NCBI RefSeq assembly: GCF_900112765.1
Contig: NZ_FOMZ01000004.1
Coordinates: 49,446-113,445, forward strand
Direction of reading: 5' to 3'
DNA from: Actinopolyspora alba
GTDB lineage: Bacteria > Actinomycetota > Actinomycetes > Mycobacteriales > Pseudonocardiaceae
DNA: 64,000 bases
A program made the position numbers and the translations under genes. Below, one piece after another: positions 10,331 to 29,470 of the stretch. Under the pieces are notes generated by a model. That model was given only the letters and a program-made list of their open reading frames with translations, ran no database searches and was not told the origin of the DNA. How positions within the stretch are numbered: position 1 is the stretch's first letter; the number at the start of each line of letters is the position of its first letter.

Positions 10331-10969
10331 ATGAATCCGGTCAGCGGTTCCTCGTCCGGGCGGCGTGAGCGTCATAAGCAACGAGCGAAGCAGCGGCTCT
10401 ACGAATGCGCCCTCGAGCTGTTCGCGAAACAGGGCTATGACAACACTACGGTCGACGAGATCGCGGAGGCCGCCGACGTCGCGCGTGGGACTTTTTTCAA
10501 CTATTTCCCCCGCAAGGAGGACCTCGTTTCCTGGTGGGGTCAGAAGCGCCGGGAAGGTTTGCGTGAGTACATGGGGATGGCCGAGTCGCATGACCCGGAT
10601 CTCTCGAATTTCTCCGAGGACGTCGTCGCTGAGCTCGAGTGGTGCATGGAAGCTTTGGGGAGGATGAACGAGGACGAGTGGAAAGTAACTCCCTCGATGC
10701 TGATGGCGTGGGTCAGGGCCGGCAGCCCCATATCGGAAGAACCTTATGTTTCCGGGGTGTTCGCGGAGATCATCCGGCGTGGCATAAACCGACAACAGGT
10801 GAAGCCCACAGTGGACCCGCAGGAGATCGGAAACATTCTTCGTGACGTCTACCTGGGCGCGCTTTACCGGTGGTCCCGTTCCGATGAGTTCACTCGTCCG
10901 CCCAAGGAAGAGCTTTCCAGGATTCTGGGCGTGGTGCTGGAAGGAATTTTGATCAGGCCGAATCAATAG
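10331..10969 (+). CDS. TetR-family transcriptional regulator
   Basis: A 212-residue protein with a strong TTAGGAGG site 6 nt before the ATG. The N-terminal helix-turn-helix runs over about residues 20-65 (ALELFAKQGYDNTTVDEIAE, then ARGTFFNYFPRKEDLV). The C-terminal ligand domain is divergent. It lies next to and converges with the PKS gene, so it may control this cluster or the exporter at 16608. The gene shares a long bidirectional hairpin terminator with the PKS. Confidence 0.92.
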   Translation: MNPVSGSSSGRRERHKQRAKQRLYECALELFAKQGYDNTTVDEIAEAADVARGTFFNYFPRKEDLVSWWGQKRREGLREYMGMAESHDPDLSNFSEDVVAELEWCMEALGRMNEDEWKVTPSMLMAWVRAGSPISEEPYVSGVFAEIIRRGINRQQVKPTVDPQEIGNILRDVYLGALYRWSRSDEFTRPPKEELSRILGVVLEGILIRPNQ

Positions 10970-11090
10970 TTTCGTCCTGCCGCGGCGGTCCGAGAGTGGT
11001 GGTGGACGATTCACACTCCGGGGCACCTCATCGGCGTCGAGCCGGCGATTCGGGAGCGCGGAGTACGAGTCGCACTTTTGGGCGCGACAA

Positions 11091-14100: not shown

Positions 14101-15124
14101 CTCCGGTTCGGTCGTGTTCGCCCGCGAGCTGCGCCAGTGCTTCCAGTTCCACCGCGTCACCGGTACCCGTGCCGCTCCCGTGCGCCTCCACGTAGTCCAG
14201 TTCGGCGGGATGTACGCCGGCTTGTCGGCAAGCCGTGCTCACCAGATCCCGCTGCCCCGTGACAGCGGGTTTCAACAACAGACCGCTGCTGTTTCCGTCG
14301 TTGTTGATCGTGCTTCCCAATACCGAGGCGCGGATCGGATTTCCCTGCCGCAGCGCGTCCTGTCGACGTTGTAGAACGACTACTCCGATACCGTCGCTGC
14401 GTACGAATCCGTCGGCCTTGGCGTCGCCGAATTTGCACCGGCCGTCGGCGGAAAGCATGTCCCCCTGGGAGTAGCTGATCGCATCGTTCGGTGACAGCAC
14501 CAGATTCACTCCGACGGCCAGCACCAGATCACTGTCGCCGGATCGAAGGCTCTCGCATCCCTGGTGTACGGCCACCAGCGATGAGGAACACGCGGTGTCG
14601 ACCACCAAACTCGGGCCACGCAGGTCCAACGCGTGTGACACACGTCCGGCCGTGACCGTGCGCAGTACACTGCCCGCGGCGCGGTGCACGTGAAGGTTCT
14701 CCCGGTGTTCGGACAGGCTCGCGTATTCGGCGGTCGCCTGCCCGACGATGACACCGGTACGAGTTCCGGCCAGCTCGGAGGGGCGGATACCGGCATCTTC
14801 GAGCGCTTCCCACACGCCGTGCAGTACGAGTCGTTGTTGTGGATCCATTTCTCGGGCTTCTCTGGGTGAGATCCGGAAGAACTCGGCGTCGAACTCGTCG
14901 ATCCCCGACAGGAACCCGCCGCTTCGCGACACCGTCCTGCCCGGTGTCGCGGGGGTTGGGTCGTAGTAGCTGTCGATGTCGAACCGGCTCGTCGGTATTT
15001 CAGTGACCGCGTCGACTCCACGCGTGAGTATCCCCCAGTAGTCATCGACGCTATCGGCACCGGGAAAACGGCAGGCCATCCCCACGATGGCCACGTCCTC
15101 GCGGCTCTTGGTGTAGCCGTCCAT
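11144..15124 (-). CDS. single-module type I polyketide synthase (KS-AT-DH*-ACP)
   Basis: A 1326-residue protein. The ketosynthase covers about residues 8-430 with DTACSSS (C179), EAHGSGTGTGD (H315) and NIGHTEAAAG (H355) intact. The acyltransferase (about 540-850) has GHSMGE (S633) and VASH (732-735), the type usually linked to methylmalonyl units. The region at about 895-1190 has a dehydratase-like fold, but where the catalytic HxxxGxxxxP is expected it reads LGQGGITVLP, so the His is missing. The ACP (about 1205-1290) has LGLDSL with S1246 for phosphopantetheine. No ketoreductase or thioesterase is present. It likely performs one or few unreduced extensions. It is divergent from the response regulator and the LysW operon. 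Confidence 0.93.
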   Translation of the reverse strand: MDGYTKSREDVAIVGMACRFPGADSVDDYWGILTRGVDAVTEIPTSRFDIDSYYDPTPATPGRTVSRSGGFLSGIDEFDAEFFRISPREAREMDPQQRLVLHGVWEALEDAGIRPSELAGTRTGVIVGQATAEYASLSEHRENLHVHRAAGSVLRTVTAGRVSHALDLRGPSLVVDTACSSSLVAVHQGCESLRSGDSDLVLAVGVNLVLSPNDAISYSQGDMLSADGRCKFGDAKADGFVRSDGIGVVVLQRRQDALRQGNPIRASVLGSTINNDGNSSGLLLKPAVTGQRDLVSTACRQAGVHPAELDYVEAHGSGTGTGDAVELEALAQLAGEHDRTGAPLPVGSVKSNIGHTEAAAGIAGLIKATLILERGTIPASLHMSTPNRTLRENPAVQVVTTPKELTATTGRGVVGVSSFGISGTNAHVVLGAEPAPSRSAPAVTDTAEPHVLVLSARSRSALLRTAAQYADYLSTDGPGTQHPLRDICHTAATRREAHPHRLWVTGFTHGELAERLRDLVEGTETQHGGVHRVSAGTAPSSVFVFPGQGGQWSGMGRRLLEVSPTFREALVECDRALHPELGWSVLDTLTEPTVAEHNTAVEIVQPLLWSMQVSLARLLRSHGIEPKLCIGHSMGEVAAAHIAGWLSLSTAAQVIARRSRLMKRLSGRGLMLATDLTPVEAHTLLTSQSEVCVAAENGANNTVLSGEADAIHRIADRLNAQGKWCREINVDVASHSPLTDELRDDLLDQLAGIGVSDSGHRIPMLSTVHGRPVTDEDLDTQYWADNLRLPVRFAESIDRAAREGSEVFLEISPHPVLLPAIAEITSDISDGASVVAAQNRNTAEDLAIAKTLGHVFCLGLDVKWEHWYRAQARHVRLPTYAWDREKFWLDDAKPVVNSEATRANSTHFTLEQLGVTELCRGLGQGGITVLPAAASLEAVYAAVQRTVTTPMHHAAAIPVLEGIQLSEVTVETAGLAEARLEVRIDVTAHTAEAPFSVQLHGDIDGVTGSGTQCMTGWVRLDRNRPAPTSKSGEKTLTTALARCRDYVSGEQIHSSAVERGIRLPRDSSAHGWRADGNAVLWLHPPVESPGNVLEALLQPLLIAHPGSTDDTAVPTGYVPTSFHEITWYAHPGENVWSIARITEPDSPSPSRADVTVLAPDGSLIAEFRGITLLKPPRSQSGKGTELVGHPTTTERAGPDTDHEHHHGRTAPTVDRNTVLTEIAAALGTSPRHIDQHKTLIELGLDSLMALQLQRRLAAVGISTTARSLLQSADIRRLIAEIIPEHAPEEEFSNQPNATSIKEYIALDEGSANGEPTSEALIHARPV

Positions 15125-15718
15125 GCCCTATACCCCTTTGTCGTGAAACATCGTGACGTCCCACTGATACCGGGAACCAGTGGGGCATTGGAATCCAAAG
15201 TTAAACGTTAGAACAAACTTATCCTAGAGATGCAAGTAAGTAATTCACGTAGTGGACGAGCTTCCGGGGAGTTGTTTGGCTCGGCCGCTCCCGGTGCTCA
15301 GGGGGGAGCTGTCACTGCCAGGGCATTCACCGGTGACGGAGCTCGGGTTCGAGGGTGAGCCAGACCGTGCCGGCTTACGGCAATACCCCAAAAAAGTGAT
15401 TTATATCACAAAAAGTATGCACTAAGGTGATAGTTTGATCTAGAGTTCAAAATCAGATTGGAGGCCAACGAAGATGGGTGTCCGGGCTCGGCGCACGACC
15501 CACGCACGGAGATGAACGGTGTCGCGACGACGAGTCGCGCGCCACGGATGTAGGGACTTTCACCGGTGCTCGCGCGGTTCGCGGTGCGAAAACACGGATT
15601 GGTTTGATTCATGCTTGAGGTGTTCGTCTACTGGGGAAACTGATTAGCTGTGTGACTTTCCGGTGGCATGAGAGGCGCTGCCACCGTCGGGTCGGCATGG
15701 CGAATTTTTGGAGTGACC
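15125..15718. promoter_or_regulatory. divergent promoter region of the PKS and response regulator, with GTGAT-N4-ATCAC site
   Basis: This 594-nt AT-rich stretch separates the divergent PKS and response-regulator genes. It contains a palindrome GTGATTTATATCAC at 15396-15409 flanked on both sides by A5 runs, a plausible operator. No convincing gene is present. The response regulator and the TetR protein are candidates to act here. Confidence 0.5.
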
Positions 15719-16393
15719 ATGCGTTTGCTTGTCGTCGAGAACGAGGAAACTGTTGCCGTCCCCCTGATCAACGGATTGCGGAGACACGGTTACGACGTGG
15801 TCGGAGTCGATACGGGTAACCAGGCGTTGGAGATCTACGAAGATGTGGATCTCGTGCTGCTCGACCTGGAATTGCCCGACATGGATGGTTTGGAGGTCTG
15901 CCGCACGGTTACGGAGGCGAATACGCCGGTTATCGCGTTTACCGAGCGCGGTACCGAGTCGGATCGGGTGTTGGGACTTCAGGCGGGTTCGGACGACTGC
16001 CTGGACAAGCCCTACGGGTTCCGAGAGCTGATGGCTCGCATCGACGCCGTCATGCGTCGTGTGGAGCGACAGAACTCACTGGCCGAGCCGTTGATCACAC
16101 GGGGGCAACTGCGGATCAACAACGCGAACAGGCAGGTTTGGTTGGGGAGCGAGCGGATCGAGGTCACCCCGAAGGAGTTCGAACTGCTGTTCCTGCTGGC
16201 CAGTAGGCCCGGCGTGGTGCACTCGCGGCACCAACTGATGTCCGAGGTCTGGGGGGATTCGATGAACCACAAGGCGAGTACGAGGCCCAGTCGCACCATA
16301 GACACGCACGTGAGCAGTTTGCGGAGCAAGCTCGGTTCCGGTCACTGGATCCACACCGTACGAGGATTCGGTTTCTGTTTCACAGCGGAGTGA
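15719..16393 (+). CDS. orphan OmpR-family response regulator
   Basis: A 224-residue protein from ATG 15719 behind TTGGAG. The receiver domain (about 1-115) has an acidic start (VENEE), the phosphoacceptor strand LVLLDLELPDMDG and the conserved Lys in LDKPYGF. The C-terminal winged helix (about 130-222) has VTPKEFELLFLLA and TIDTHVSSLRSKLG. No histidine kinase is adjacent, so it is an orphan. Its position between the PKS and the LysW operon suggests it is the pathway activator. Confidence 0.92.
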   Translation: MRLLVVENEETVAVPLINGLRRHGYDVVGVDTGNQALEIYEDVDLVLLDLELPDMDGLEVCRTVTEANTPVIAFTERGTESDRVLGLQAGSDDCLDKPYGFRELMARIDAVMRRVERQNSLAEPLITRGQLRINNANRQVWLGSERIEVTPKEFELLFLLASRPGVVHSRHQLMSEVWGDSMNHKASTRPSRTIDTHVSSLRSKLGSGHWIHTVRGFGFCFTAE

Positions 16394-16607: not shown

Positions 16608-17819
16608 ATGTCTAGTACGCAACTGTCCGATGATTCATATACTGAGAACAAGCCCACACGGCTCCCGATGGGGCCGCTGTTGGCATTGGCCACGGCCGCG
16701 TTCATCACAGTCCTGACCGAGACACTGCCGGCGGGGCTGCTGCTCGGCATGAGTGCCGATCTCAATGTCAGTGAGTCGGCGGTAGGGCAGTTGGTGACGC
16801 TCTACGCTCTCGGCACCGCGCTCACCGCGGTACCGTTGTCCGCGGCCACCGTGGGGTGGAGTCGCAAGAACCTGCTGCTGGTCGGTGTCGTGGGCTTCGT
16901 CGTCGGTAATACGATCACGGCGATCTCGTCGCATTATCCACTGACCATGGCCGCCCGTTTCATAGCCGGTGTCGCCGCGGGCGTGGTGTGGTCGCTCCTG
17001 GCGTCGTACGCCCGCCGCATGGCTCCGGAGAACCTCCAGGGCAAGTCGATCGCGATCGTTATGGCCGGTATTCCGCTCGCCCTGTCGCTGGGAGTGCCCG
17101 CGGGTACGTTCCTCGGCAAGGTCGTCGGCTGGAAACTGACCTTCGCGCTCATGTCGGCACTTGCCGTGGTCCTGGTCGGCTGGATCATGGCGATGGTTCC
17201 GAACTTCCCCGGCCAGCCGCGTGGTAGTCGTATGCCGATCAAACGGGCCCTCACGGATCCGGGAGTCCTGGCGGTACTGTTCGTGACGCTGGTCTTCGTG
17301 CTCGCGCACAACATTCTCTACACCTATATCGCGACTTTCCTGGAGCGAGTGGGCATAGCTGACTCCATCGACGTCGTGCTGTTGGTCTTCGGCGTGGCAT
17401 CCATGCTCAGCATCTGGATCGTCGGTGCGCAAATCGACCGCCGTCTCCGGGCCCTTACGATCGGTGGCACCATTCTGGTCGCCGTGGCCGCCACGATCCT
17501 GGCGGTGCTGGCTCAACCCGTGTTCGTTTACATCGCCGCCGTGCTCTGGGGGCTGGGTTGGGGAGGTGTCCCCACGCTGCTGCAAACGGCCGTCGGCAAC
17601 GCGGGCGGTGAGGTCGGCGACACCGCGCTGGCCATGCTTGTCACGTTGTGGAACGCCGCGATGGCGGGCGGCGGTATCGTAGGCGGGATTCTGCTCGGTT
17701 CCCTCGGAGCCGCGGCCTTCCCCTGGAGCGTTGTCGCGCTCCTGGTGCCGGTGTTGATCGTCGTGCTCGCCGCTCGTACCCGCGGCTTCCCGGCCGGGAA
17801 CACCGGGACAACCGCCTAG
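16608..17819 (+). CDS. MFS exporter (DHA1 type)
   Basis: A 403-residue protein with about twelve transmembrane segments. The N-terminal part, LATAAFITVLTETLPAGLL, is typical of the AraJ/PbuE-like sugar- and drug-efflux branch. In this cluster the natural role is export of, or self-resistance to, the product. It lies 214 nt after the response regulator on the same strand. Confidence 0.88.
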   Translation: MSSTQLSDDSYTENKPTRLPMGPLLALATAAFITVLTETLPAGLLLGMSADLNVSESAVGQLVTLYALGTALTAVPLSAATVGWSRKNLLLVGVVGFVVGNTITAISSHYPLTMAARFIAGVAAGVVWSLLASYARRMAPENLQGKSIAIVMAGIPLALSLGVPAGTFLGKVVGWKLTFALMSALAVVLVGWIMAMVPNFPGQPRGSRMPIKRALTDPGVLAVLFVTLVFVLAHNILYTYIATFLERVGIADSIDVVLLVFGVASMLSIWIVGAQIDRRLRALTIGGTILVAVAATILAVLAQPVFVYIAAVLWGLGWGGVPTLLQTAVGNAGGEVGDTALAMLVTLWNAAMAGGGIVGGILLGSLGAAAFPWSVVALLVPVLIVVLAARTRGFPAGNTGTTA

Positions 17820-18393: not shown

Positions 18394-19128
18394 ATGGATT
18401 TTTCCTCATTACCGCGGCTCGGCGTGGTGGTTCCTCCCGAGAACCCCACTGTCGAGCCTGAATTCACGCGTCTTGCCGGCGATATTATGCGGGTGTACAG
18501 TTCCAGGTTTCCACTGGTCGTGGGAGAGGAGTTGCAGCAAGTTCTGCACGCCTGGAACGTGGCTCTGCCCGAGATCCTGTCCAATTTCGGGTCACTGGAG
18601 CTCGACGCTACCGTCGTCGCTTGCAGCGCCTCGCACTATCTGCTCGATCCCGAGGGGGATCGGGACTTCTGTGACCAACTTTCCGGTCGACTGGGGTTCC
18701 CGGTGCAATCCTCGACGCAGGCGATACTCGCCTGCTGCGCTTCGCTCGGCATTACTGAGCTGACACTGGTCTCTCCTTACGAGCCCTGGCTGACCGAACT
18801 CTCACGGAGCTTCTGGGAAAAGGCCGGGATCACCGTCGATCGAGTTATTCCGGTACCGGCGGGAGACCGCTTCGACCCGTATTCGGTGACCACCGACAAG
18901 ATCGTCGAAGAGGTGAGTGGTGGTGACATCGACGACGACGGCCCCCTGCTGTTCACCGGCACCGGGATGTTCACCCTGGAAGCTCTTGATCAACTATCTC
19001 GCCGCACCGACCGGGTGCTGTTGACGTCCAATCTCGCCAGCGTCTGGTGGGGGCTGAAAGTCACCGCGCTGCCGCACGAGGAGAGCGAGCTCCACCCACT
19101 TCTTCGCCGGTTGCGTCCCGAGCGGTAG
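18394..19128 (+). CDS. Asp/Glu racemase-superfamily enzyme (maleate isomerase/arylmalonate decarboxylase-like)
   Basis: A 244-residue protein from ATG 18394 (GTG at 18382 is an alternative). The opening LGVVVPPENPTVEPEF matches the start of maleate cis-trans isomerases and arylmalonate decarboxylases. The first catalytic Cys is present in VACSAS. The second half reads LLTSNLASVWW where isomerases carry the second Cys, so only one catalytic Cys is left. A one-Cys member may act as a decarboxylase or an isomerase on a 2-substituted dicarboxylate. It is the first gene on the plus strand before the LysW set, and a terminator separates it from the next gene. Confidence 0.8.
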   Translation: MDFSSLPRLGVVVPPENPTVEPEFTRLAGDIMRVYSSRFPLVVGEELQQVLHAWNVALPEILSNFGSLELDATVVACSASHYLLDPEGDRDFCDQLSGRLGFPVQSSTQAILACCASLGITELTLVSPYEPWLTELSRSFWEKAGITVDRVIPVPAGDRFDPYSVTTDKIVEEVSGGDIDDDGPLLFTGTGMFTLEALDQLSRRTDRVLLTSNLASVWWGLKVTALPHEESELHPLLRRLRPER

Positions 19129-19341
19129 TGCGCTGCCACGAGCTCCGGCTCCATCGGTGGCATTCGGTCGTTCGCCGCCGCGATGTGTGCCGTCTCCCGG
19201 GCCGGTGTGAATCGAATTTTACGCGGTGGCGGACGAAACATTGCCTGGGGAAAAATTATCTTGAAGAAAGTTGACTCAACCATGACCTTTCTGGTCTTGC
19301 GGGAAGGTTCGAGGATTGCCAATATGGTTGGTGCGAGGCCG

Positions 19342-19367
19342 AAACCGGAGAGTCCGGTTTTCTTTCT
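19342..19367 (+). terminator. intrinsic terminator or attenuator before the homocitrate-synthase-like gene
   Basis: AAACCGGA (19342-19349) and TCCGGTTT (19353-19360) form a tight 8-bp hairpin with loop GAG, followed by TCTTTCT. It lies 60 nt before the next start codon, so it may be an attenuator. Confidence 0.65.
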
Positions 19368-19427
19368 GGGGATTGTTCCAAATGAAACTCCCCGGCGGCC
19401 GAGAAGGGGTTTTCAGGTATTCTTGAA

Positions 19428-20612
19428 ATGGTAAGCGATATTTCTGATCCCGAGTCGGGTTCGGGGAGAAGTGCGGCTGAGGCAGTCCCGCCGAACTCGT
19501 TTCCCCACTTGTCCGACGCGACGTTGCGGGACTCGGCGCACATGGCGGGCGTCGAGTTCGGTCCCGGCGATGCGGCCCGCATCGCCGACCTGCTGGTGAA
19601 GACCGGGGTGGAGCTCGTCGAGGTGGGTATGATCTCCGGCCCTTCCTCGAAGGACGCTGACCTGATCGAGGCGGTACACGAGAGAGTGGGACCGGAGCGC
19701 GCTCTCACGCTGGTGGTGGTGCGTGACCGCCGGCAGGTGGAGAAGGCGTTGGACGAGGCCGCGCGGCTACGAGTGCGCTCGCTGATGCTGTCCATCCCGA
19801 CTTCGGAAGAGCACGCGGGGTTGAAGCTGGCCTCGTCGAGTGCCAAGTACTTGAACACTCTCGCCCGTACCGCCATAGAACTCGCCAAGGCCAGGGGATT
19901 CCACGTCACCTTCAGCGGCGAGGACGGAGCCCGTACCCCAACGGAACGGCTGGTTCCCTACGTGACCGCCGGTTTCGAGGCCGGCGCGGACCGCTTTCGG
20001 CTCGCGGAGACCGTTGCCTCACTGTCCCCGTGGCAGATGGAGAGCAAGATCCGGGAGCTGACCTCGATCGACGGCGCTGAAATCGAGATTCATTCGCACC
20101 ATATGCTGGGTATGGCGGTGGCGAATTCGCTCGCCGCCCATCGGGCCGGTGCGCGCTGGATCTCGACCACCGTGGGAGGTATCGGCGAACGCGGTGGCAA
20201 CGCGCCGCTGGCCGAGGTGTTGACCTCACTTCGAGTCATCCACGGTGATACGCGGTTCGATCTGCGCCACCTCACGGACCTGTCCGCCCTGGCACTGGCC
20301 GGGTCCGGTCTCGGAGAGGCGTTCCAACCCGGTCCCACGGCCCCGCACGCCTTCGCGTACGAGCTTCCGGGGCAGCTGAGCAGGCCGGACGCCTACGAGA
20401 CCATCGCCCCGGAGGTCGTCGGTAACGTACGTCAGCTGCGCGTCCGCAGCAGGTTGACCTCGCCGCTGGTCCGATGGGCGCTCGGTGACGAGGGTGAGGA
20501 CCTTGCCGTCGACTCCTTCGTCGACTGGCTCGTCGAACGCCAGCGGAATCACGGCCTCCCCGTCATCGATCAGGACGTGATCCGGAAGGCGGCCGTGGAA
20601 TTCCGCTCTTAG
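19428..20612 (+). CDS. homocitrate synthase/isopropylmalate synthase-like (DRE-TIM) enzyme
   Basis: A 394-residue TIM-barrel protein. The entry motif is DATLRDSAHMAGVEF; canonical members read DTTLRDGEQ, so the Gly and the Gln are changed. Metal-binding HSHHMLGMAVAN, the strand TFSGEDGAR and GIGERGGNAPLAEV are conserved. The family condenses an acyl-CoA with a 2-oxo acid. In LysW pathways homocitrate synthase starts 2-aminoadipate formation, but no homoaconitase or homoisocitrate dehydrogenase is seen in this window. It therefore may make a different alkylmalate-like acid. LysW follows 113 nt downstream. Confidence 0.88.
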   Translation: MVSDISDPESGSGRSAAEAVPPNSFPHLSDATLRDSAHMAGVEFGPGDAARIADLLVKTGVELVEVGMISGPSSKDADLIEAVHERVGPERALTLVVVRDRRQVEKALDEAARLRVRSLMLSIPTSEEHAGLKLASSSAKYLNTLARTAIELAKARGFHVTFSGEDGARTPTERLVPYVTAGFEAGADRFRLAETVASLSPWQMESKIRELTSIDGAEIEIHSHHMLGMAVANSLAAHRAGARWISTTVGGIGERGGNAPLAEVLTSLRVIHGDTRFDLRHLTDLSALALAGSGLGEAFQPGPTAPHAFAYELPGQLSRPDAYETIAPEVVGNVRQLRVRSRLTSPLVRWALGDEGEDLAVDSFVDWLVERQRNHGLPVIDQDVIRKAAVEFRS

Positions 20613-20725
20613 CGAGCGATTCCGTTTCTCGGTGCGGGTCGAGTTTTCCCGCGGCACGGTGCGCCGGTGTTTCCGGCCCTGTTTCAGTTCGAATGTTTTC
20701 CTTTTCGAGAGGTGTGGAGAAAATC

Positions 20726-20914
20726 ATGACATCGATCCAGACGCTGACCGGTGAGTGCCCCGAGTGCGAGACCGGCGTGACCACCCCGCCGATCGAGGTC
20801 GGGGAGACCATGGGCTGCCCCGAGTGCATGCTCACGCTTCGCGTCGAGGGCATCAGCGAAGGGGTTCTCGACCTGCGGATGGTCGAGGTTCAGCTCCGCG
20901 ACTGGGGCGAGTGA
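20726..20914 (+). CDS. lysW: LysW amino-group carrier protein
   Basis: A 62-residue acidic protein with two CPEC zinc knuckles (residues 11-14 and 31-34) and a C-terminal RDWGE. The last Glu is the attachment point: its gamma-carboxylate forms an isopeptide with the substrate's alpha-amino group, which masks that group during later steps. All features of LysW are present. Actinobacteria normally make lysine through diaminopimelate, so this copy most likely serves a specialised product. LysX follows 28 nt downstream. Confidence 0.95.
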   Translation: MTSIQTLTGECPECETGVTTPPIEVGETMGCPECMLTLRVEGISEGVLDLRMVEVQLRDWGE

Positions 20915-20942
20915 GAAAACGGCCGATAAAAGGAGACCGTTG

Positions 20943-21794
20943 ATGGGCGGCAATATCGCCATTGTCGCGGACCGGATCAGCTGGGAGGAACGCCGGCTGA
21001 TCCACACCGCGCCCGAGTTCGGCCTGCGGATGGAGTGGGTCAACGACGAGTCCTTGTGCCTGGGGCACCCGGACGCCGAGTTGATCAAAAAGTACGACGC
21101 CGCGCTGATCCGCAGCCGCAGTTACACCAGGGGTGGGTTACTGGCGACGTTGACCGAGGCATCCGAGATGCCCACCATGAATTCCGCGTCAGCCATCCAC
21201 GCCTGCGAGAACAAATTGTCCTTGCGGACGTTGTTGCGTACCGCCGGTGTGCCGGTGACGGATTTCCGGCTGGTGCTGTCCCGCCGGGACTTCACCGCGG
21301 CACTGGACGAGATACCACTGCCAGTGGTGTTCAAGCCGGTTCTGGGCGGCATGGGAAAGCGGGTGACGCTGGTGCGCCACTCGGACACCGCGCAGTCGGT
21401 CTACGACTACGTCGAAGACCTCGGACACGGATTCGAACAAGCCGGCTTGGTGGAGCCTTACCTGGATGAGGGGACCTCGGTCCGCTGCTTCGTCGTCGGT
21501 GGTGAGCTGGTCGCCACCGCCGAGTTCGCCGGAGCGGGAAAGGACTGGCGCAGCAACGCCGCACTGGGCAGTCGGACCCGCGCTTTCGAGCACGAACCGG
21601 ATGTTCGGGACATCGTGGATCGAGTCGTGGGTGTGCTCGGTGAGGGGATTTACGGGATCGACCTGTTCCACACCCCGACCGGTTACGTGGTCAACGAGGT
21701 CAACCACGCTCCCGCCTTCCGTGCGGTGTCCTCGGCGACCGGACTCGATTTCACCCATGCCATCAATAGCTATGTGCAGGAGAAACTGCGATGA
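20943..21794 (+). CDS. lysX: LysX-family ATP-grasp ligase (amino acid-LysW ligase)
   Basis: A 283-residue RimK-type ATP-grasp enzyme from ATG 20943 behind AAAGGAG. A TTG three bases earlier is the alternative. It joins an amino acid to the LysW C-terminal Glu. The ATP-binding VVFKPVLGGMGKRV and metal-binding YGIDLFHT, VVNEVNH are present. The motif after EVNH reads APAFRA (about residues 256-261), whereas 2-aminoadipate and glutamate enzymes that I recall carry TMEFKN-type residues. This suggests a different amino acid substrate. The stop overlaps the LysY start (ATGA). Confidence 0.92.
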   Translation: MGGNIAIVADRISWEERRLIHTAPEFGLRMEWVNDESLCLGHPDAELIKKYDAALIRSRSYTRGGLLATLTEASEMPTMNSASAIHACENKLSLRTLLRTAGVPVTDFRLVLSRRDFTAALDEIPLPVVFKPVLGGMGKRVTLVRHSDTAQSVYDYVEDLGHGFEQAGLVEPYLDEGTSVRCFVVGGELVATAEFAGAGKDWRSNAALGSRTRAFEHEPDVRDIVDRVVGVLGEGIYGIDLFHTPTGYVVNEVNHAPAFRAVSSATGLDFTHAINSYVQEKLR

Positions 21795-22846
21795 TCCGTA
21801 TCGGAATCGTCGGTGCTTCGGGGCTGGCCGGCGGTGAATTGATCAGGCTGGTAACCCAGCATCCGGATCTGGAGCTCGCCTTTCTCGGCGGTTCGTCCAA
21901 CATCGGTCGGAGACCGGCGGAGCTCCACCCGGGGCTGCGTACGGATGTCGGACTGGCCGTCGAACCGATAACGGAGGACCTCGCCGACAGATGTGACGCC
22001 GTACTGCTCGCCACCCCTGCTTCGGTATCAGCCGAGCTGGCCACGAAGCTGACTGATCGGGTTCCCTGCGTGATCGATTTGAGCGGAGCGTTCCGGATTC
22101 GGGACTCCGAGCTCCACCAGCGCTGGTATCCCTCGGTCGAGCGTTCCACCGAACTCGCCGACCGCGTCGTCTACGGGGTGCCGGAACTCGTCGGTGAGCA
22201 GCTGACCGATGCCTCGTTGATCTCGCTGCCCGGCTGCTACGCCACCGCGATCACCCTGGGGTTGGCTCCGCTGACACTGGAGCTCGGCCTGGACCTCGGA
22301 AACGTGGTGGTCGACGGCAAGAGTGGCTCCAGCGGAAGTGGTCTGCGACCGCGGACCGCCGATCTGCACCCCCTCCGCGACGGGGCCATTTCCGCTTATT
22401 CCCCCGCAGGGCATCGGCACGCCGCGGAAGTGAGTGACTTCTTCGAGCACGCCAAGCCCGGGCGGATCGGATCGTTGAGCATGTCGGCCTACGGGGTTTC
22501 CCACGTCAGGGGACTGCTGGCCAGCTGCTACGTGTTTCCCGAAGAGTCGGTGGACGCCCGTGAACTGCACCGGACATTTCTGCGGTTCTACAAGGAACAC
22601 CCCTTCGTCCGGGTACGACGCCACAACGAAACCCTCATCCCGGTTCCCGATCCGCAGGCGGTACTGGGTTCCAACTTCTGCGATCTGACCGCGATGGTCG
22701 ATCCGGACGGCGGCCGCATCGTCGTTCTGTCCGCGCTGGACAACCTCGTCAAAGGGGCCGCCGGACAGGGCGTACAAGCGGTCAACCTGCGTTTCGGTCT
22801 TCCGGTGGAGAAAGGACTGGCCATGCAACCGGTGATGCCGGCATGA
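21791..22846 (+). CDS. lysY: LysY/ArgC-type semialdehyde dehydrogenase (LysW-bound acyl phosphate reductase)
   Basis: A 351-residue protein with an NADP-binding GASGLAGGELIRL and the catalytic Cys in LPGCYATAI (C149). The histidine in SPAGHRHAAEVSDF fits the family. It reduces the carrier-bound acyl phosphate made by LysZ to the semialdehyde. It overlaps both neighbours by ATGA, so translation is coupled across lysX-lysY-lysZ. Length is normal for ArgC/LysY. Confidence 0.93.
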   Translation: MIRIGIVGASGLAGGELIRLVTQHPDLELAFLGGSSNIGRRPAELHPGLRTDVGLAVEPITEDLADRCDAVLLATPASVSAELATKLTDRVPCVIDLSGAFRIRDSELHQRWYPSVERSTELADRVVYGVPELVGEQLTDASLISLPGCYATAITLGLAPLTLELGLDLGNVVVDGKSGSSGSGLRPRTADLHPLRDGAISAYSPAGHRHAAEVSDFFEHAKPGRIGSLSMSAYGVSHVRGLLASCYVFPEESVDARELHRTFLRFYKEHPFVRVRRHNETLIPVPDPQAVLGSNFCDLTAMVDPDGGRIVVLSALDNLVKGAAGQGVQAVNLRFGLPVEKGLAMQPVMPA

Positions 22847-23643
22847 CGTCTCGTGCTTCGCGCGTTCCGACCGTGGTCAAGTTGGGCGGCAGTTGCCTGG
22901 ACGACCTGTCCGATTCCTGGTGGGACGATCTCGCCCGACACGGACACGACGCACCGCTCGTCCTGGTACACGGTTGGTCCAAGCCGCTCAAGCGTTTCGA
23001 TCCGCGGCACGCCGACCCGTCGGCCGTGCTGCGGGATCGATACGGCAATCAGAGTCGGTGGACCACTCCCGAAGTGATCAGCGACATCAGGACGGTCAGT
23101 GAGCGACTCGCCGAGCAGGTCCTCGAGCGGTTGGCGACACGCGGAATCACCGGTGAGCGAATGCTCGGTAGTGACGGTCTGCTCCGGGCCGGACGAGCCG
23201 AGCGTTGGTGGTGGCAGGACAAACAGCTCGTCGAGATCGACAACCGGGTCGGCCCGATCACCGGTGTCGATCCGGAAGTGCTGAAGAACCTGTCGGTCGG
23301 ACACTGCTACATCGTCACTCCGCTGGCGCGCAACGGCGAGGGCGATGAGGTGAACACCGACGCCGACAGGGCCGCGGCCGCCGTGGCAGGAGCTACTTCG
23401 GCGTCCTCATTGGTGCTGGTGACCGATGTGGAGCACCTGCTGATCGACGGGGAACCGGTCCGACGCATCAGCGCCGAGGACGCAGCCGCCTTCCGCGACC
23501 GCGGTGCGGTCGGAGGCATGCGCAAGAAGCTGCGTGCCGCGGGCGAGGCGTTGGAGTCCGGCGGAGGCAGCGTCGTCATGGGCAACGCGCTCGTGACGGA
23601 GATGCTCGCGGAACGAGCCGGGACCGTCATCACCCCCACGTGA
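22843..23643 (+). CDS. lysZ: LysZ-type amino acid kinase (acts on carrier-bound substrate)
   Basis: A 266-residue member of the amino acid kinase family, related to ArgB. The glycine-rich VVKLGGSCLDD start binds phosphate. The later NTDADRAAAAVAGA and the GGMRKKLRAAGEAL helix are typical of LysZ. It phosphorylates the distal carboxylate of the LysW-linked amino acid, giving the LysY substrate. The gene starts inside the lysY stop codon (ATGA). Confidence 0.93.
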   Translation: MTSRASRVPTVVKLGGSCLDDLSDSWWDDLARHGHDAPLVLVHGWSKPLKRFDPRHADPSAVLRDRYGNQSRWTTPEVISDIRTVSERLAEQVLERLATRGITGERMLGSDGLLRAGRAERWWWQDKQLVEIDNRVGPITGVDPEVLKNLSVGHCYIVTPLARNGEGDEVNTDADRAAAAVAGATSASSLVLVTDVEHLLIDGEPVRRISAEDAAAFRDRGAVGGMRKKLRAAGEALESGGGSVVMGNALVTEMLAERAGTVITPT

Positions 23644-23658
23644 AGAGAGGAGCGTTCC

Positions 23659-24222
23659 GTGTCCGTTCCACGGGTGCTCATGGTCAACAACGGAACCCTG
23701 TCGTTGCCGCAGCTGCGGCGACGAATCGAGGATCTGGGATCGTCCACCGAGACTGTCGACACCTCCTCGGTTCCCAGCCGATTATCCTCCGGATATCAGG
23801 CCATCGTTTTGAGTGGGACCAAGGTCAGGGCTTGGAACACTGAATTCTACCGTCCGCTGGTGGACCTGGTCATGAATTCCAGTGTTCCGGTGCTCGGTAT
23901 CTGTGGTGGAATGCAGCTTTTGGCGATGGCCGCGGGCGGCAGGTTGGTCGAGGGGCAGCAGCGTGTCGGGAGCTACGACGCGCGGGTGGATGTCGACGAG
24001 CCCCTGTTCGCCTGCGTCGAACCCACGGTGAAGGTGTTCCACCGTCATACGCTGTACCTGGATCAGGTGCCAACCGGATTCCGCAACATCGGGCGTTCCG
24101 ACCAGGCGCCCGTGGAGTTCATGGCCTCCGATGACGGCAGAATATTCGGTTCGCAGGCGCATCTGGAGTTCCGCAAGGACGGTTTCGAGATACTGCGTGG
24201 ATTCACGCGGCTCTACGGTTGA
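23659..24222 (+). CDS. class I glutamine amidotransferase-fold protein (possible gamma-glutamyl hydrolase)
   Basis: A 187-residue single-domain protein with an intact Cys-His-Glu triad: nucleophile C82 in GICGGMQLL, and H168/E170 in SQAHLEF. No synthetase partner domain is attached. Single-domain members include amidotransferase subunits and gamma-glutamyl hydrolases such as PuuD. LysW links its cargo through a gamma-glutamyl isopeptide, and the usual releasing peptidase LysK is absent here. Hydrolysis of that bond is therefore an attractive role; ammonia supply for an amidation is the alternative. It follows lysZ by 15 nt. Confidence 0.85.
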   Translation: MSVPRVLMVNNGTLSLPQLRRRIEDLGSSTETVDTSSVPSRLSSGYQAIVLSGTKVRAWNTEFYRPLVDLVMNSSVPVLGICGGMQLLAMAAGGRLVEGQQRVGSYDARVDVDEPLFACVEPTVKVFHRHTLYLDQVPTGFRNIGRSDQAPVEFMASDDGRIFGSQAHLEFRKDGFEILRGFTRLYG

Positions 24223-24308
24223 ACCGGATTTCGTTTCGTGAGAGCGATACCGGGCAGAAATTCGTTAAATCTCGTCACGATTCACGATAACTATCCCATG
24301 AGGTCGTC

Positions 24309-25463
24309 ATGACGCAGAAAGATTCTCATTCGTCCCCCTCGTGCGAGGAGAGCCAGGATCCCGCCTTCGTGGTGTCCCTCAACGGCAGCGGCGGTTCCGC
24401 CAAGGGGTGGGTGGTCGTCGACGAACTGGTCGACTCGCTCGCCATCGGCGGCACCAGGATGACCGAGGACGTCACCGAGGAGGAGGTGCGTGCACTCGCC
24501 CGGGCGATGACTCAGAAACTCACCCTCGTAGGGCTTCCCATCGGCGGTGCCAAGGCGGGTGTCGTCGCGGGGCCCGAACAAGGACCGGAGCGCGAGGAAG
24601 TGCTGCGGACTTTCGGGCGTACCGTCGCACCGCTGCTTCACGGTGGTATTCACCTGGGATGCGATCTGGGTGTCACTCCGGCGGACCGCGCTGTCTTCTT
24701 CGAAGCGGCCGACTACGATCCGCGCTACAGGGCGCGCGCCGTCGACATGCCCTACGACTGGCGTACCTATTACGAACCACTGGTGGACTGCACGGGCCAC
24801 GGGGTCGGTGTAGCGGCCACGACCGCCCTCGACGCGCTTCACAGGGCAGGCTCCTCCTGCCGAGTCGTCATCCAGGGTTTCGGGACCGTCGGCCGTTCGG
24901 TCGCCCGCTTCCTCGCGGACCGGGGCCACCGCATCGTCGGTGTCGCCGATGTCGAGGGAACCATCAGCGCCCGCGAACTTCCCGTGGAGCAGCTGGAGAG
25001 CATCACCGACAGCTTCGGAAGGATCGATCGTTCCCGCCTGCCCGAAAGCGTCACGGAATCGCACGAGCCGGAGTCCTGGCTGGACGTCGAGGCCGATCTG
25101 CTGATCCTCGCGGCGAACCACAACGCCATCAACGCCTCCAACGTCCACCGGGTCAAAGCGGGGTTGGTGGTCGAGGGCGGAAACATCACCATCAGCCCCG
25201 AGGCCAAGGCGAAGATGACGGTGCAAGGTCTCACCGTCGTCCCGGACGTCGTCGCCAATGTCGGAGGCGTGGCCTCCGCGGCTCTGGCGCTGACCCGCAT
25301 CGTGCCGTTCGAGCTGGAAGCCGACAAGCGCAAGCAGTGGGTCTTCGACTGGGTGGGCGACCGGGTACGTCGTAATACGCGGGACTTGCTGGAAGTCGCT
25401 TCCGCGTGGACCCAGGACCCGTTGCCCGCCCTGCTGTCCGACCGACGGAAGGAGCGTCGATGA
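24309..25463 (+). CDS. Glu/Leu/Phe/Val dehydrogenase-family enzyme
   Basis: A 384-residue protein. The catalytic lysine is in GLPIGGAKAGVV, the following acid in HLGCDLGVT, and the NAD(P) motif in VIQGFGTVGRSVARFL. The family interconverts 2-oxo acids and amino acids with ammonia. In this cluster it could form the amino acid that LysX loads, or recycle nitrogen. It overlaps the next gene by ATGA. The first 20 residues are low complexity and may be a nonconserved extension. Confidence 0.9.
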   Translation: MTQKDSHSSPSCEESQDPAFVVSLNGSGGSAKGWVVVDELVDSLAIGGTRMTEDVTEEEVRALARAMTQKLTLVGLPIGGAKAGVVAGPEQGPEREEVLRTFGRTVAPLLHGGIHLGCDLGVTPADRAVFFEAADYDPRYRARAVDMPYDWRTYYEPLVDCTGHGVGVAATTALDALHRAGSSCRVVIQGFGTVGRSVARFLADRGHRIVGVADVEGTISARELPVEQLESITDSFGRIDRSRLPESVTESHEPESWLDVEADLLILAANHNAINASNVHRVKAGLVVEGGNITISPEAKAKMTVQGLTVVPDVVANVGGVASAALALTRIVPFELEADKRKQWVFDWVGDRVRRNTRDLLEVASAWTQDPLPALLSDRRKERR

Positions 25464-27157
25464 CCTCGCCGAGCACAGCGGATCCCTCGGTGGGCACGGC
25501 CGACACGAGTGATTCCACCAGGAACATTCCCCGCGACACAGCGGAGCGTAGGCGGATGTACCGCTGTCGTGGCTGGTGGCGGGAGGAGACCTTCCTCGAC
25601 GATCTGTGGCGACAGGTTCGTTCGCGGCCGCACAAGCTCGCGATCGCGGGCCGCCGGATCACGGAGGGACACACCGACACCCTCGACTACGTGGAGCTCG
25701 CCCAGCTCACCGATCGGTTCGCGGGAGCCCTCCTGGAACTGGGCGTCGAACGAGGCGATGTGGTGGCGGTACAACTGCCCAACCGGTGGGAGATGGTGCC
25801 CCTGATGTTCGCGTGCATGCGCATCGGAGCGACCATCTGCCCCGTCGACCCGGCCTGTCCCGAAGCGGAACTACGACACCGGCTCGAGCTGACCGAAGCC
25901 AGTGTGTGCATCACGATCTCCCGCTGGGAAGGGGAAGAACTGGCCGCGGTCGCGCTGGCACTGCGTGCTGAGCTGCCGACTCTGGAGCACGTGGTGGTCG
26001 TCGGTAGCCGCGTCCCCGACGGAGCCGAGGACTTCGACGAGCACTTCCTCGCCGCTGCCCGGGAGGACAGCCACGCGGGGAAACTGGGCGGAAACGAGCT
26101 GGGCCCCGATGATCCGTTCGTCGTGCTGTTCACCTCGGGTACCACCGGAGAATCGAAAGGAGTGCTGCACAGTCAGAACACCGTCCATTCCGCGCTGCGC
26201 GGTTATGCCGACGCGTTCCTGCTGGACGACAGCCTGGTCGCTGTGGTGACCACTCCGCTGGTCCACTACTCCGGCTTCGGTCAGGGCGTTCTCACCGGAG
26301 TGATGCTGGGAGGAACGATCGCCTTCCAGGACGTTCGACGCAACGAGGCGCTCCTCGACCTGGTGGAAAGGTACGGTGCCACCCTGCTGTACGGACCACC
26401 ACCCACTCTGGCGGAGATCGCCGCCTCGCAGCGATCCGAGCCACGCGAGGTCGGCACGATTCGTCATGTGGTGACCGGTTCGGCTCCGGTGCTGCAACCC
26501 TTGGTGGACGAGCTGCGCGACATGTTGGGGGCTCGTACGTACTCGGTGTGGGGCATGTCCGAGTACGGACCGGTCACCATCACGCATCTCGACTACAACC
26601 AGGACTGGGCCGCTCACAGCAACGGTAGACCCATCGATTCCATGGAGATCCGCATCGACGCGTGCCAGGATCCCGAACGGCGGGCGGACGTCGGTCGGCT
26701 GCGGGTCCGGGGCGCTTCCCAGGCGTTGGGGTACTACAAGCGCGAGGATGTCTTCGTCGCGCAGTTGAACGGGGACGGCTGGTTCGATACGGGGGACGTG
26801 GCCCGGGACGACGAACGTGGCGGGATCCGAATTCTCGGCCGGGCCAAGGACGCGATCCTGCGAAACGGGGTCGTGGTTCCCATGACCGAGATAGAGGCCA
26901 CTCTCGCTCGGCACTCGAGGGTCACCGAGGCAGCGTTGGTGGGACTCAACGGTCAGATCGACGACATGATCGTGGCCGTGGTCGCCACCGACTCGGCGGA
27001 AAAGCCCACATTGGACGAACTGCGGCAACATCTCCGGTGCTCCGGTCACCAAGAACAGTTCCTCCCGGAGCGTCTCGAGACGCTGCCCGCACTGCCCAAA
27101 ACCCTCACCGGCAAGGTTCGCAAGGCGGAACTGCGAAGGCGGTACGCCGCCGACTGA
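25460..27157 (+). CDS. AMP-forming acyl-CoA ligase
   Basis: A 565-residue adenylate-forming enzyme from ATG 25460, overlapping the dehydrogenase stop. The phosphate loop is LFTSGTTGESKG, followed by WGMSEYGPVT (A5), WFDTGDVA (A7) and the catalytic Lys in KTLTGKVRK (A10). The MYRCRGWWREETFLDDL start resembles cyclohexanecarboxylate-CoA ligase-like enzymes. It activates a carboxylic acid, perhaps the starter or substrate of the PKS or the acyl donor of the synthase at 19428. No carrier protein domain is attached. Confidence 0.9.
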   Translation: MTSPSTADPSVGTADTSDSTRNIPRDTAERRRMYRCRGWWREETFLDDLWRQVRSRPHKLAIAGRRITEGHTDTLDYVELAQLTDRFAGALLELGVERGDVVAVQLPNRWEMVPLMFACMRIGATICPVDPACPEAELRHRLELTEASVCITISRWEGEELAAVALALRAELPTLEHVVVVGSRVPDGAEDFDEHFLAAAREDSHAGKLGGNELGPDDPFVVLFTSGTTGESKGVLHSQNTVHSALRGYADAFLLDDSLVAVVTTPLVHYSGFGQGVLTGVMLGGTIAFQDVRRNEALLDLVERYGATLLYGPPPTLAEIAASQRSEPREVGTIRHVVTGSAPVLQPLVDELRDMLGARTYSVWGMSEYGPVTITHLDYNQDWAAHSNGRPIDSMEIRIDACQDPERRADVGRLRVRGASQALGYYKREDVFVAQLNGDGWFDTGDVARDDERGGIRILGRAKDAILRNGVVVPMTEIEATLARHSRVTEAALVGLNGQIDDMIVAVVATDSAEKPTLDELRQHLRCSGHQEQFLPERLETLPALPKTLTGKVRKAELRRRYAAD

Positions 27158-27257
27158 GTACCGCTTCCGCGTGGTTCGATCCGGCCGCGGCAAGCCACGC
27201 GGAAGCGACCTCCCCGCGATCATGTCCGGAATCCCGCGATTCCCCGGAGCGAAAATC

Positions 27258-28595
27258 ATGTCCACAAGCTCCTCACCGGCCATGTCGGCCACGCTCGCCG
27301 CCGACGCGCTGTTGGACAGCAAGCGTGCCGCTGGTCAACACGTGATCTCCATGGCCAGCGGTGAGATCGGTGTTCCCGTCCATCCCTCCCTCGCCGAGCG
27401 GCTCGCTCAGGCCGCCCACCGCAACAGCTACGGGCCGGTGGCGGGCAGTGCCGAACTGCGTACCGCGGTAGCCGGTTACTGGCAGCGCCGCGACCTGGAG
27501 ATCGATCCTGATCTCGTCATGTGCGGCCCTGGCAGCAAGTCGCTGCTGTTCGCCGTGCTGCTGGCGCTCGGCGGCAGCGTGGTGATCCCCCGTCCGAGCT
27601 GGGTCAGCTACGCCGCGCAAGCGGCTCTGGCCGGTCAGCGAACCATCTCCTGCCCTGTGCTTCCCGGCCAAGGAGGTGTGCCCGACCCCGACCGGCTGCA
27701 CGAGGAAGTCACCGCGGCGCGAGCCGACGGACACGAGGTTCGGGCGGTCGTGGTTACGCTGCCGGACAACCCGACCGGCACCTTCGCCTCCTCCGGAACG
27801 GTCCGTCGGTTGTGTGCGGTCGCCCAGCGGTTGGACCTGGTGATCATCTCGGACGAGATCTACTGTGATCTCGTTTTCGATTCCGCGGCACCTCCGATTT
27901 CCCCGGCGGCATTCGCGCCCGAGCGTACGATCGTCACCACCGGCCTCACCAAGAATTTGGCACTCGGTGGCTGGCGGCTCGGGGTCGCCCGGCTGCCCGA
28001 CGGTCCGCTCGGTCACACCCTGCGCGACCGGCTCCTGGGAATCGCGAGCCAGATCTGGTCCAGCCCAGCGGCACCCGTGCAGCGGGCGGCGGCGTACGCC
28101 TTCCAGGAGCCCCCGGAGATCAGCCGGCATGTGGCCGCGCTGCGCGGGCTGCACCAGAAGGTCGCGCGGGCCGTCGCCGAACGGTTCACCGCGGTGGGGA
28201 CGCGCCTGGAACCGGTGCGTGCCACCTGCTATCTGTACCCCGATTTCGAACCACTGCGCTCTCGCCTCGCGGCGAGACACGATGTTCACACCGGCGCCGA
28301 ACTGACGAGTCTGCTGCTCGAACGCTACGGCATCGGTGTGTTGCCCGGCAGCGAGTTCGGTGAGCCCGCCTCCGGTCTGCGCCTACGAGCGGCGACCAGC
28401 AGGCTTTACGGGGAGAGCGACGAGCAACGCGCGGAAGCCGTGCGCTCACCCGATCCGCTCTCCCTGCCCTGGATCAGGAGCAACCTCGATCGCATCGGGG
28501 AAGTCCTGACCGATCTCATCGGCTCTTCGAACCGGGACTCCTGTTCCCGCACCGCTCCGTCCACTCCTCCGCATCCGGAAGGACCTGTGTCATGA
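27258..28595 (+). CDS. class I/II PLP aminotransferase
   Basis: A 445-residue fold-type I enzyme from ATG 27258 behind GGAG. Upstream in-frame ATGs (27171, 27222) lack a ribosome site. The PLP lysine is in TTGLTKNLALGGWRLG, and TLPDNPTGT and ISDEIYCDL are typical of AspC-like enzymes. The usual LysW-pathway aminotransferase LysJ belongs to class III, so this is not a LysJ. It may aminate the semialdehyde or an early oxo acid. Coupled to the next gene by ATGA. Confidence 0.9.
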   Translation: MSTSSSPAMSATLAADALLDSKRAAGQHVISMASGEIGVPVHPSLAERLAQAAHRNSYGPVAGSAELRTAVAGYWQRRDLEIDPDLVMCGPGSKSLLFAVLLALGGSVVIPRPSWVSYAAQAALAGQRTISCPVLPGQGGVPDPDRLHEEVTAARADGHEVRAVVVTLPDNPTGTFASSGTVRRLCAVAQRLDLVIISDEIYCDLVFDSAAPPISPAAFAPERTIVTTGLTKNLALGGWRLGVARLPDGPLGHTLRDRLLGIASQIWSSPAAPVQRAAAYAFQEPPEISRHVAALRGLHQKVARAVAERFTAVGTRLEPVRATCYLYPDFEPLRSRLAARHDVHTGAELTSLLLERYGIGVLPGSEFGEPASGLRLRAATSRLYGESDEQRAEAVRSPDPLSLPWIRSNLDRIGEVLTDLIGSSNRDSCSRTAPSTPPHPEGPVS

Positions 28596-29470
28596 CCATC
28601 CTGTTCGAGTGTGAGTTCGCCGGTGAACGCTACGTCGGCTTCGGAAAGCCGGTCGTCGGCGAAAAGCACACCCTCCACCCGGTCGCCGACGGTCGGCTGC
28701 GGGCCGATTTCACGGCCGTGGACAGTCCCGAGGAGATCGTCACCCGCCGTGCCGATGGGGACGTCGCCGTCACGGTCGCCCCCGACGATCCGCGGCTGCG
28801 CTTTCTGCCGCCGCTGCTGCCCCGGAACACCGACAGCGCGATGTTGAGTGGATTCATGCGTACCCACCGGTCCAAGTTCGACACCGAACCGGCCGAGGAC
28901 GAGGGATTCGTTCCACCGAACTGGTTCTTCAAAGGCATGGGGGCCTGGGCGTGCATGCCGGAGGAGGCGTTGGTCGTCCCCAGGGAGCCCGTGGCGCTCA
29001 TCGAGGAACCGGAAGTCGCACTCGTCTACGTCAACGACGACGAGGGCAACCCGCACTACGCCGGTTACACCTTCGGCAACGACCTGTGCGACATCGGTCT
29101 GCACACGCGGAATCCGGGCTGGAATCCGTACTGCAAGTTGTGCGACACGGCTCTCCTGCCGTATCTCTTCCTCGACGAGCCACCGCGAACGGTTACCGGT
29201 CGCGTCGCCATCGAACGCGCGGGCACCACGGCGTGGGAGGGGGATTTCAGCTGTGGCGAGGACTCCCTGCAGTTCAGGGTGCGGGACATGATGGACAACC
29301 TCTTCGAGTACCCGGCGGTACGTCGCCCGGGCATGGTCAACTACGTGCTCCTCGGAGCCGACAAGGCCAGTTACCACGACGGGTTCCGGATCGCCGACGG
29401 TGACCGGATAGCCATCGATGTGCGTAGTCACGATGTCGCTTTTGCCAATCCCGTTCGGTTCGGTGCGTGA
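28592..29470 (+). CDS. fumarylacetoacetate hydrolase (FAH)-family protein
   Basis: A 292-residue protein. The middle has NWFFKGMGAWACMP followed by EEPEVALVYVNDDEG and HYAGYTFGNDLCDIGLH, the metal-binding core of the FAH superfamily (hydrolases, decarboxylases, hydratases of 2-oxo acids). In this operon it could cleave, hydrate or decarboxylate the carrier-pathway intermediate. It is the last gene of the run; a GC-rich hairpin follows. Confidence 0.82.
   Translation: MTILFECEFAGERYVGFGKPVVGEKHTLHPVADGRLRADFTAVDSPEEIVTRRADGDVAVTVAPDDPRLRFLPPLLPRNTDSAMLSGFMRTHRSKFDTEPAEDEGFVPPNWFFKGMGAWACMPEEALVVPREPVALIEEPEVALVYVNDDEGNPHYAGYTFGNDLCDIGLHTRNPGWNPYCKLCDTALLPYLFLDEPPRTVTGRVAIERAGTTAWEGDFSCGEDSLQFRVRDMMDNLFEYPAVRRPGMVNYVLLGADKASYHDGFRIADGDRIAIDVRSHDVAFANPVRFGA

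Follow-up and report, generated by a model that had tools for sequence, protein, structure and literature searches.

What does an actinobacterium build on the LysW-type amino-group carrier that is encoded, in one run with LysX-, LysY- and LysZ-like enzymes, in the genome of Actinopolyspora alba, and how is that carrier loaded and relieved of its product? The run occupies positions 18394-29470 of a 64,000-nucleotide stretch (hereafter the window; contig NZ_FOMZ01000004.1, positions 49,446 to 113,445 of the forward strand) of a 5.24 Mb genome in 42 contigs. The answer that we favour, with some confidence though well short of certainty, is that the cluster belongs to the iso-maleimycin (BGC23a) family, was acquired horizontally, and builds a maleimycin-type bicyclic maleimide, a small antibiotic, on the carrier; both the product in this host and the enzymatic steps are what we infer. 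An earlier, sequence-only reading had proposed an unusual amino acid protected on LysW: a LysW-type carrier cluster with a probable role in secondary metabolism stands, but an (iso-)maleimycin-like bicyclic maleimide is the more probable product, given a family with a published knock-out (PMC12022981).

Gene content and published genetics carry this assignment. In Streptomyces sp. QL37, BGC23a encodes an isopropylmalate synthase (IPMS)-like enzyme, an AMP ligase, LysW and RimK; deletion of lysW-rimK abolishes iso-maleimycin; and addition of BGC23 to S. coelicolor M1152 carrying the lug cluster yields iso-maleimycin (PMC12022981, 2025). The window run holds these four components, as compared with the text of the paper; there the AMP ligase and rimK share the number QL37_30720, which makes its gene numbers uncertain. 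The paper reports a similar cluster in 27 strains, including S. sp. SM11, S. filamentosus and S. shenzhenensis, and these names recur in our locus set (L037, L086 and L039, respectively); all three loci match the cassette of the window, and for the last two the correspondence with the paper is by species name only, as it gives no strain. Because of these three names and the knock-out published within the family, a maleimycin-type product is probable. Three points weigh against it: the proposed identity with BGC23a comes from text and shared names, not from the QL37 or S. showdoensis sequences; the window lacks the flavin mononucleotide (FMN)-oxidase pair, the PDR oxidoreductase and the acyltransferase of some relatives; and it has a polyketide synthase (PKS), so that its product may differ.

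The locus set was assembled by tblastn on plasmids, which gave 5 annotated plasmid loci, and by a scan of a genome collection, which gave 64 genome loci, 69 in total; a 65th genome locus (L101), too remote at 22% identity, was left out, and the plasmid matches H4, H5, H6 and H9 stand outside the set. Counts out of 70 refer to the window plus these 69 loci, with genes called by tblastn at E 1e-8 and several misses on short contigs; the rows are partly non-independent, L035, L036 and L099 being near-copies and some Streptomyces likewise. A search for the same gene order in other genomes had been suggested, and the gene set indeed turns up in the 69 fetched actinobacterial loci, either intact or truncated where a contig stops, which makes it more than a chance neighbourhood. 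LysX and LysY are found in 70 of 70; LysZ, a class-I glutamine amidotransferase (GATase), a Glu/Leu/Phe/Val dehydrogenase-like enzyme (GDH) and the ligase in 69 each; the HMGL-like enzyme in 68; the pyridoxal phosphate (PLP) enzyme in 65; the MFS exporter and the regulator in 63 each; and the FAH-like protein in 62. The order HMGL, LysX, LysY, LysZ, GATase is constant wherever these genes are found; GDH in Rhodococcus, and the PLP enzyme and FAH in L063 and its kin, occupy mobile positions. The Rhodococcus loci (L035 16001-24401, L036 and L099; two plasmid records and one genome) hold a diverged cassette with LysX at 52-53% identity, a Glu-ended LysW and the FMN-oxidase pair.

On the proposed route, LysX would load the tail of LysW with a dicarboxylic amino acid; LysZ and LysY would convert the side-chain carboxylate of this cargo to an aldehyde; and the HMGL-like enzyme would add an enolate, of pyruvate or an acyl-CoA, to the aldehyde, replacing the transketolase of azinomycin and vazabitide biosynthesis. 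The FAH/AraD1-like protein, the aminotransferase and the dehydrogenase would remodel the C7 chain to a cyclopentene dicarboxylate, which the alicyclic-acid-type CoA ligase would activate for imide closure; the AMDase-like protein, or in other members an acyl-CoA dehydrogenase, would contribute a finishing step, and the MFS protein would export the product. By their structures, iso-maleimycin would bear a central hydroxyl and maleimycin an allylic one; the seven carbons fit aspartate semialdehyde plus pyruvate (central hydroxyl) or glutamate semialdehyde plus acetyl (allylic hydroxyl). Maleimycin is C7H7NO3 (PMC4583450), the transketolase step of azinomycin is given in PMC9570651, and the two Diels-Alder substrates are called achiral in PMC12022981; the accessible text of the latter shows no enzymatic route to iso-maleimycin, and the word glutamine is absent from its main text.

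As far as their sequences can tell, three carbon-chemistry enzymes are jointly compatible with a pathway through an aldol product to an alicyclic acid. The motif of the HMGL-like enzyme compares with LRDGMH in the E. coli aldolase MhpE and LRDGEQ in E. coli LeuA, and its His aligns with the His of MhpE, not with the Gln of LeuA; the His of RDxxH is the catalytic base of 4-hydroxy-2-oxo-acid (HOA) aldolases. The motif is conserved in 67 sequences, with Ser replaced by Thr in some and the Ala-His pair in at least 97%; two of the four other HMGL-like genes of the host genome were extracted and read LRDGNQ and PRDGLQ. The enzyme may well extend a carrier-bound semialdehyde, although its being nearer overall to homocitrate and isopropylmalate synthases than to aldolases counts against this. 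For the FAH-like protein, Pfam yields nothing up to E 1; it matches NCBIfam GguC/AraD1 at 124 bits (cut-off 340), and its profile is nearest to 2-keto-3-deoxy-D-arabinonate dehydratase (2q18, E 2e-4). The ligase scores 379 bits against cyclohexanecarboxylate-CoA ligase (cut-off 792), and the PLP enzyme has Asp aminotransferases among its PDB matches. In the AMDase-like protein, the Cys of ACSAS and the TGTGM motif are conserved across 45 sequences; the best PDB match is weak (3ixl, an engineered AMDase variant; E 0.0016). The N-terminal half carries the conserved Cys, and the C-terminal half has Thr/Gly; wild-type AMDase shows the reverse layout.

The carrier itself departs from the known pattern. 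LysW was identified in 69 of the 70 loci, window included (the contig of L096 is cut); its tail is RDWGQ (CAG) in 65 and RDWGE (GAG) in 4, namely the window, whose terminal GAG codon is known from one assembly, and the three Rhodococcus loci. The side chain of the C-terminal Glu of LysW is the site of cargo attachment, the GSWGR motif of LysX/ArgX reads the EDWGE tail, and an E54A mutant is an arginine auxotroph (PMC10433800); the isopeptide chemistry of such carriers is reviewed in PMC9303977. The confinement of the terminal residue to Gln or Glu suggests chemistry at the gamma position. A literature search that lacked the main subscription papers found no printed mention of Gln-ended carriers, which the sequence-only reading had also not seen; their presence in most relatives is a new observation and points to an activation step so far unrecognised. 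The window LysW has no PF21344 match at 1e-3 in a profile search of the genome and scores 30.9 bits against NF041070 (cut-off 75); it probably works like LysW, with predicted loading, as a member of a divergent clade outside these curated families. LysW-pathway clusters have been discarded as false candidates for ribosomally synthesized and post-translationally modified peptides in Streptomyces (PMC7794033), and LysW-like carriers were noted in some encapsulin clusters (PMC8346489).

As to the Glu of the window carrier, a 7-gene FastTree of 64 rows (6 of 70 left out for missing or short proteins) favours a reversion, as does a careful 7-gene mixture tree of 31 rows, which groups the window with L039, L032 and L041 at 99/99; a quick tree built from 5 genes and 42 rows, in conflict with both, places it beside the Rhodococcus rows with support 70. 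When all Glu-ended rows were constrained to a single group, the approximately unbiased (AU) test gave p 0.085. It is therefore favoured, though not proven, that Gln changed to Glu in the lineage of the window.

The GATase, overlooked in the earlier gene list, is a candidate for acting on this tail. It is present in 69 of the 70 loci (window included), its residues Cys82, His168 and Glu170 are invariant across 21 rows, and all five annotated relatives are named as gamma-glutamyl-GABA hydrolase family; class-I GATases and Peptidase C26 cleave gamma-glutamyl amides. It would thereby unmask and/or unload the carrier: taking over from the M20 peptidase LysK, it would cut the gamma-glutamyl amide that ties the product to LysW, and in relatives with a Gln-ended LysW the same activity would turn Gln into the Glu required for loading. 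Deamidation cannot be its only job, because the Glu-ended carriers of the window and Rhodococcus are still accompanied by a GATase; a Glu-ended window carrier next to an intact GATase fits only if the enzyme has a role in release or feeds ammonia. The latter is a serious possibility, if the less probable one: the GATase would leave the carrier alone and provide the AMP ligase with ammonia, from which the imide nitrogen would come. Its closest solved relatives are the GATases of GMP synthases, enzymes in which the ammonia is passed on to a substrate activated by adenylation; the imide nitrogen of a maleimide must have a source; and the ligase gene of Rhodococcus lies immediately 3' of the GATase gene, all of which speaks for such a supply. 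Ammonia supply, however, sits badly with the GATase gene lying 3' of LysZ in every listed locus that shows both, with GDH separating it from the ligase outside Rhodococcus; it leaves the Gln-ended carriers without explanation; and an M20 peptidase that could unload the carrier occurs in none of the 69 locus flanks, which extend for up to 10-16 kb on either side and for less on short contigs.

The fullest version of a carrier-directed GATase is doubtful: a Gln-ended, blocked pro-LysW would be unmasked to Glu by the GATase, and the same enzyme would afterwards release the finished product from that gamma-glutamyl position; aspartate semialdehyde would be the cargo, and its aldol reaction with pyruvate would produce 2-amino-4-hydroxy-6-oxopimelate as the C7 chain; the masked nitrogen blocks ring closure to a lysine-pathway intermediate; and the hydroxyl lands on the central ring carbon, as achiral iso-maleimycin requires. 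We give this joint reading a lower weight because of the ligase directly 3' of the GATase in Rhodococcus. A Gln-ended carrier clade with a stand-alone GATase nevertheless suggests either a pro-carrier or some other attachment chemistry.

It is also possible, though rather unlikely, that the same carrier module serves another end product in the window, alicyclic or amino-acid-derived and perhaps joined to a short polyketide from the flanking PKS. The accessory genes do vary: the AMDase occurs in 47 of the 70 loci (on the + strand in the window and in 3 of the 46 other AMDase-bearing loci) and 13 have an acyl-CoA dehydrogenase pair instead, no locus having both and 10 having neither; the FMN-oxidase pair occurs in 29, always alongside the AMDase. 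A PKS of similar size adjoins the cluster in the window and in L079. Against a different product, the core of HMGL, LysW, LysX, LysY, LysZ, GATase, GDH, ligase, aminotransferase and FAH is common to the three loci with BGC23a-like names. The joining to a short polyketide, proposed in the sequence-only reading, has a weak link, a PKS being found in 2 of 70 loci; we rejected the PKS as a core part and keep it as a possible accessory. The protein in Streptomyces sp. SKN60 (L079:2581-6573), at the corresponding upstream place, is a 1330 aa PKS with 42% identity to that of the window.

The remaining alternatives turn on comparison with other carrier clusters. As controls we used 21 loci: 20 with flanks, from 28 other LysX matches in 397 + 394 sampled genomes, and the plasmid cluster L102, from which the query sequences for M20, transketolase and control LysX/Y/Z were also taken; the controls were chosen by similarity to the window LysX, and other types of carrier cluster may exist outside them. 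LysX of the cassette clade has GGMG(K/R) at the place of GSWGR, and all 21 controls have SWGR. The window LysX matches the preATP-grasp profile PF22626 at 34.1 bits (cut-off 27) and falls below the cut-off of TIGR02144 (166.8 against 275.6 bits). At the published substrate-signature place it reads AVSSA, and 16 of the 21 controls have Gly-Phe or Gly-Leu; the residue just before is Glu in 21/21 controls and Ala or Gly in the 6 cassette sequences shown. The signature does not settle the choice of substrate. The loss of the tail-reading motif would suit loading on the alpha-carboxyl of the tail, with the Glu or Gln side chain irrelevant, and RimK-type relatives extend alpha-carboxyls; we consider this quite improbable, as an irrelevant side chain should drift and 69 sequences show only Gln or Glu.

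A cluster of the DADH type (vazabitide, azinomycin, ficellomycin), for which LysW/X/Y/Z in common would speak, is scarcely credible and was rejected on this comparison: the M20 peptidase and both transketolase halves are each present in 21/21 controls and absent both from the flanks of the 69 cassette loci and from the window, where tblastn for transketolase covered 8001-36000. The controls end their LysW in GE (located in 20/21) and lack the cassette GATase (present in 68 of the 69 loci), HMGL, FAH, PLP enzyme, GDH and AMDase at E 1e-5 (0/21; the ligase was not among the queries). The cassette type and the transketolase/M20 type are thus two mutually exclusive architectures in this sample. 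The earlier remark that the partner set, without a transketolase pair, differs from the vazabitide/azinomycin type was correct; the set is probably not new to the iso-maleimycin family.

Primary lysine or arginine biosynthesis, which the enzyme families would fit, can be set aside almost entirely, as separate lysA (473 bits), argB (258 bits) and argC (377 bits) genes lie elsewhere in the genome and 7 genomes of the same genus are listed without a LysX match at E 1e-20. LysJ/LysK, homoaconitase and homoisocitrate dehydrogenase (HICDH) were not among the cluster open reading frames (ORFs) scanned, the search for homoaconitase and HICDH being confined to these. Within a sample of 397 genomes of the order, a close LysX occurs only in the host, and 16 other matches are 27-33% identical; because of this distribution in order and genus, the cluster was probably gained horizontally. 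Such a gain also fits the GC content at third codon positions (GC3): cluster genes range from 0.71-0.84, and the three genes that come next, by eye HelD-like, MerR-like and SulP-like, have 0.91, 0.85 and 0.94.

The features are collected in Table 1. The carrier genes and their named partners were found in one run on the + strand, as first described, together with the three flanking genes: the regulator and then the exporter upstream, and the PKS further upstream on the - strand. Coupling by ATGA overlaps was confirmed at the LysX/LysY and LysY/LysZ junctions; by their coordinates, the aminotransferase and FAH genes share 4 bases.

Table 1. Genes of the carrier cluster and its flanks in the window.
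Feature	Coordinates	Strand	Basis
Single-module PKS (KS-AT-DH fragment-ACP), possibly associated	11144..15124	-	Domain matches
OmpR-type orphan response regulator	15668..16393	+	NCBIfam CreB/PhoB-like, under cut-off
MFS exporter	16608..17819	+	Profile matches under cut-offs
AMDase / Asp-Glu racemase superfamily enzyme	18394..19128	+	PF17645 E 5e-7
HMGL/homocitrate-synthase-like enzyme	19428..20612	+	PF00682 E 1e-48; LRDSAH motif, aldolase-type
LysW-like amino-group carrier	20729..20914	+	Two CxxC pairs, tail RDWGE
LysX-like ATP-grasp ligase	20943..21794	+	PF22626, PF08443; GGMGK instead of GSWGR
LysY/ArgC-like reductase	21791..22846	+	TIGR01850 330 bits, above cut-off
LysZ-like kinase	22843..23643	+	PF00696; best NCBIfam [LysW]-aminoadipate kinase, 97 bits, under cut-off
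Class-I GATase	23659..24222	+	PF00117 E 6e-18, PF07722
Glu/Leu/Phe/Val dehydrogenase-like (GDH)	24309..25463	+	PF00208
AMP/CoA ligase	25460..27157	+	Best NCBIfam cyclohexanecarboxylate-CoA ligase; start inferred from overlap with preceding stop
Class I/II PLP enzyme (aminotransferase)	27258..28595	+	PF00155; best NCBIfam GntC, under cut-off; start inferred
FAH-superfamily protein, GguC/AraD1 type (2-keto-3-deoxy-acid dehydratase-like)	28592..29470	+	NF040903 E 6e-36, under cut-off

Elsewhere in the window, a 256-aa reverse-strand ORF beside the PKS (10256-11026) has no Pfam or NCBIfam match. At 6946-9394, a radical S-adenosylmethionine protein (like TrsS or the tetraether lipid synthase Tes, with an HMPTM zinc ribbon) is followed by a DVU_1556-family-like methyltransferase, both under NCBIfam cut-offs and seemingly unusual company in an actinobacterium. 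A scan found one tRNA-Leu (903-988); promoter, terminator and repeat scans of the window gave nothing useful.

Set beside known systems, the cassette shares with the Thermus/archaeal LysW pathway a Zn-ribbon carrier with a C-terminal WGE, the kinase and the reductase; it differs in lacking LysJ/LysK, in a product that is presumably neither lysine nor ornithine, and in relatives that are mostly Gln-tailed. HOA aldolases pair with a 2-oxo-acid dehydratase or hydratase, and with such meta-cleavage modules (e.g. E. coli mhp) the HMGL-like enzyme has the RDxxH residues in common, whereas its fold is nearer to homocitrate synthase, the FAH-like protein is nearer to AraD1/KdaD, and the cassette would be used for synthesis on a carrier. 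The vazabitide/azinomycin/ficellomycin-type clusters share the LysW, LysX, LysY and LysZ logic; where they have a transketolase pair, an M20 peptidase, (G/S)SWGR in LysX and EED(W/F)GE tails, the cassette has HMGL, GATase, GGMG(K/R) and RDWG(Q/E), sequence marks that separate the two types of carrier cluster in the sampled actinomycetes. With BGC23a of QL37 and the putative maleimycin cluster of S. showdoensis, compared by description, the window has in common the IPMS-like enzyme, the AMP ligase, LysW and the RimK-type ligase, and it differs from BGC23a in its Glu-ended LysW, + strand AMDase and PKS; this comparison offers a proposed, testable route to the maleimide dienophile of lugdunomycin.

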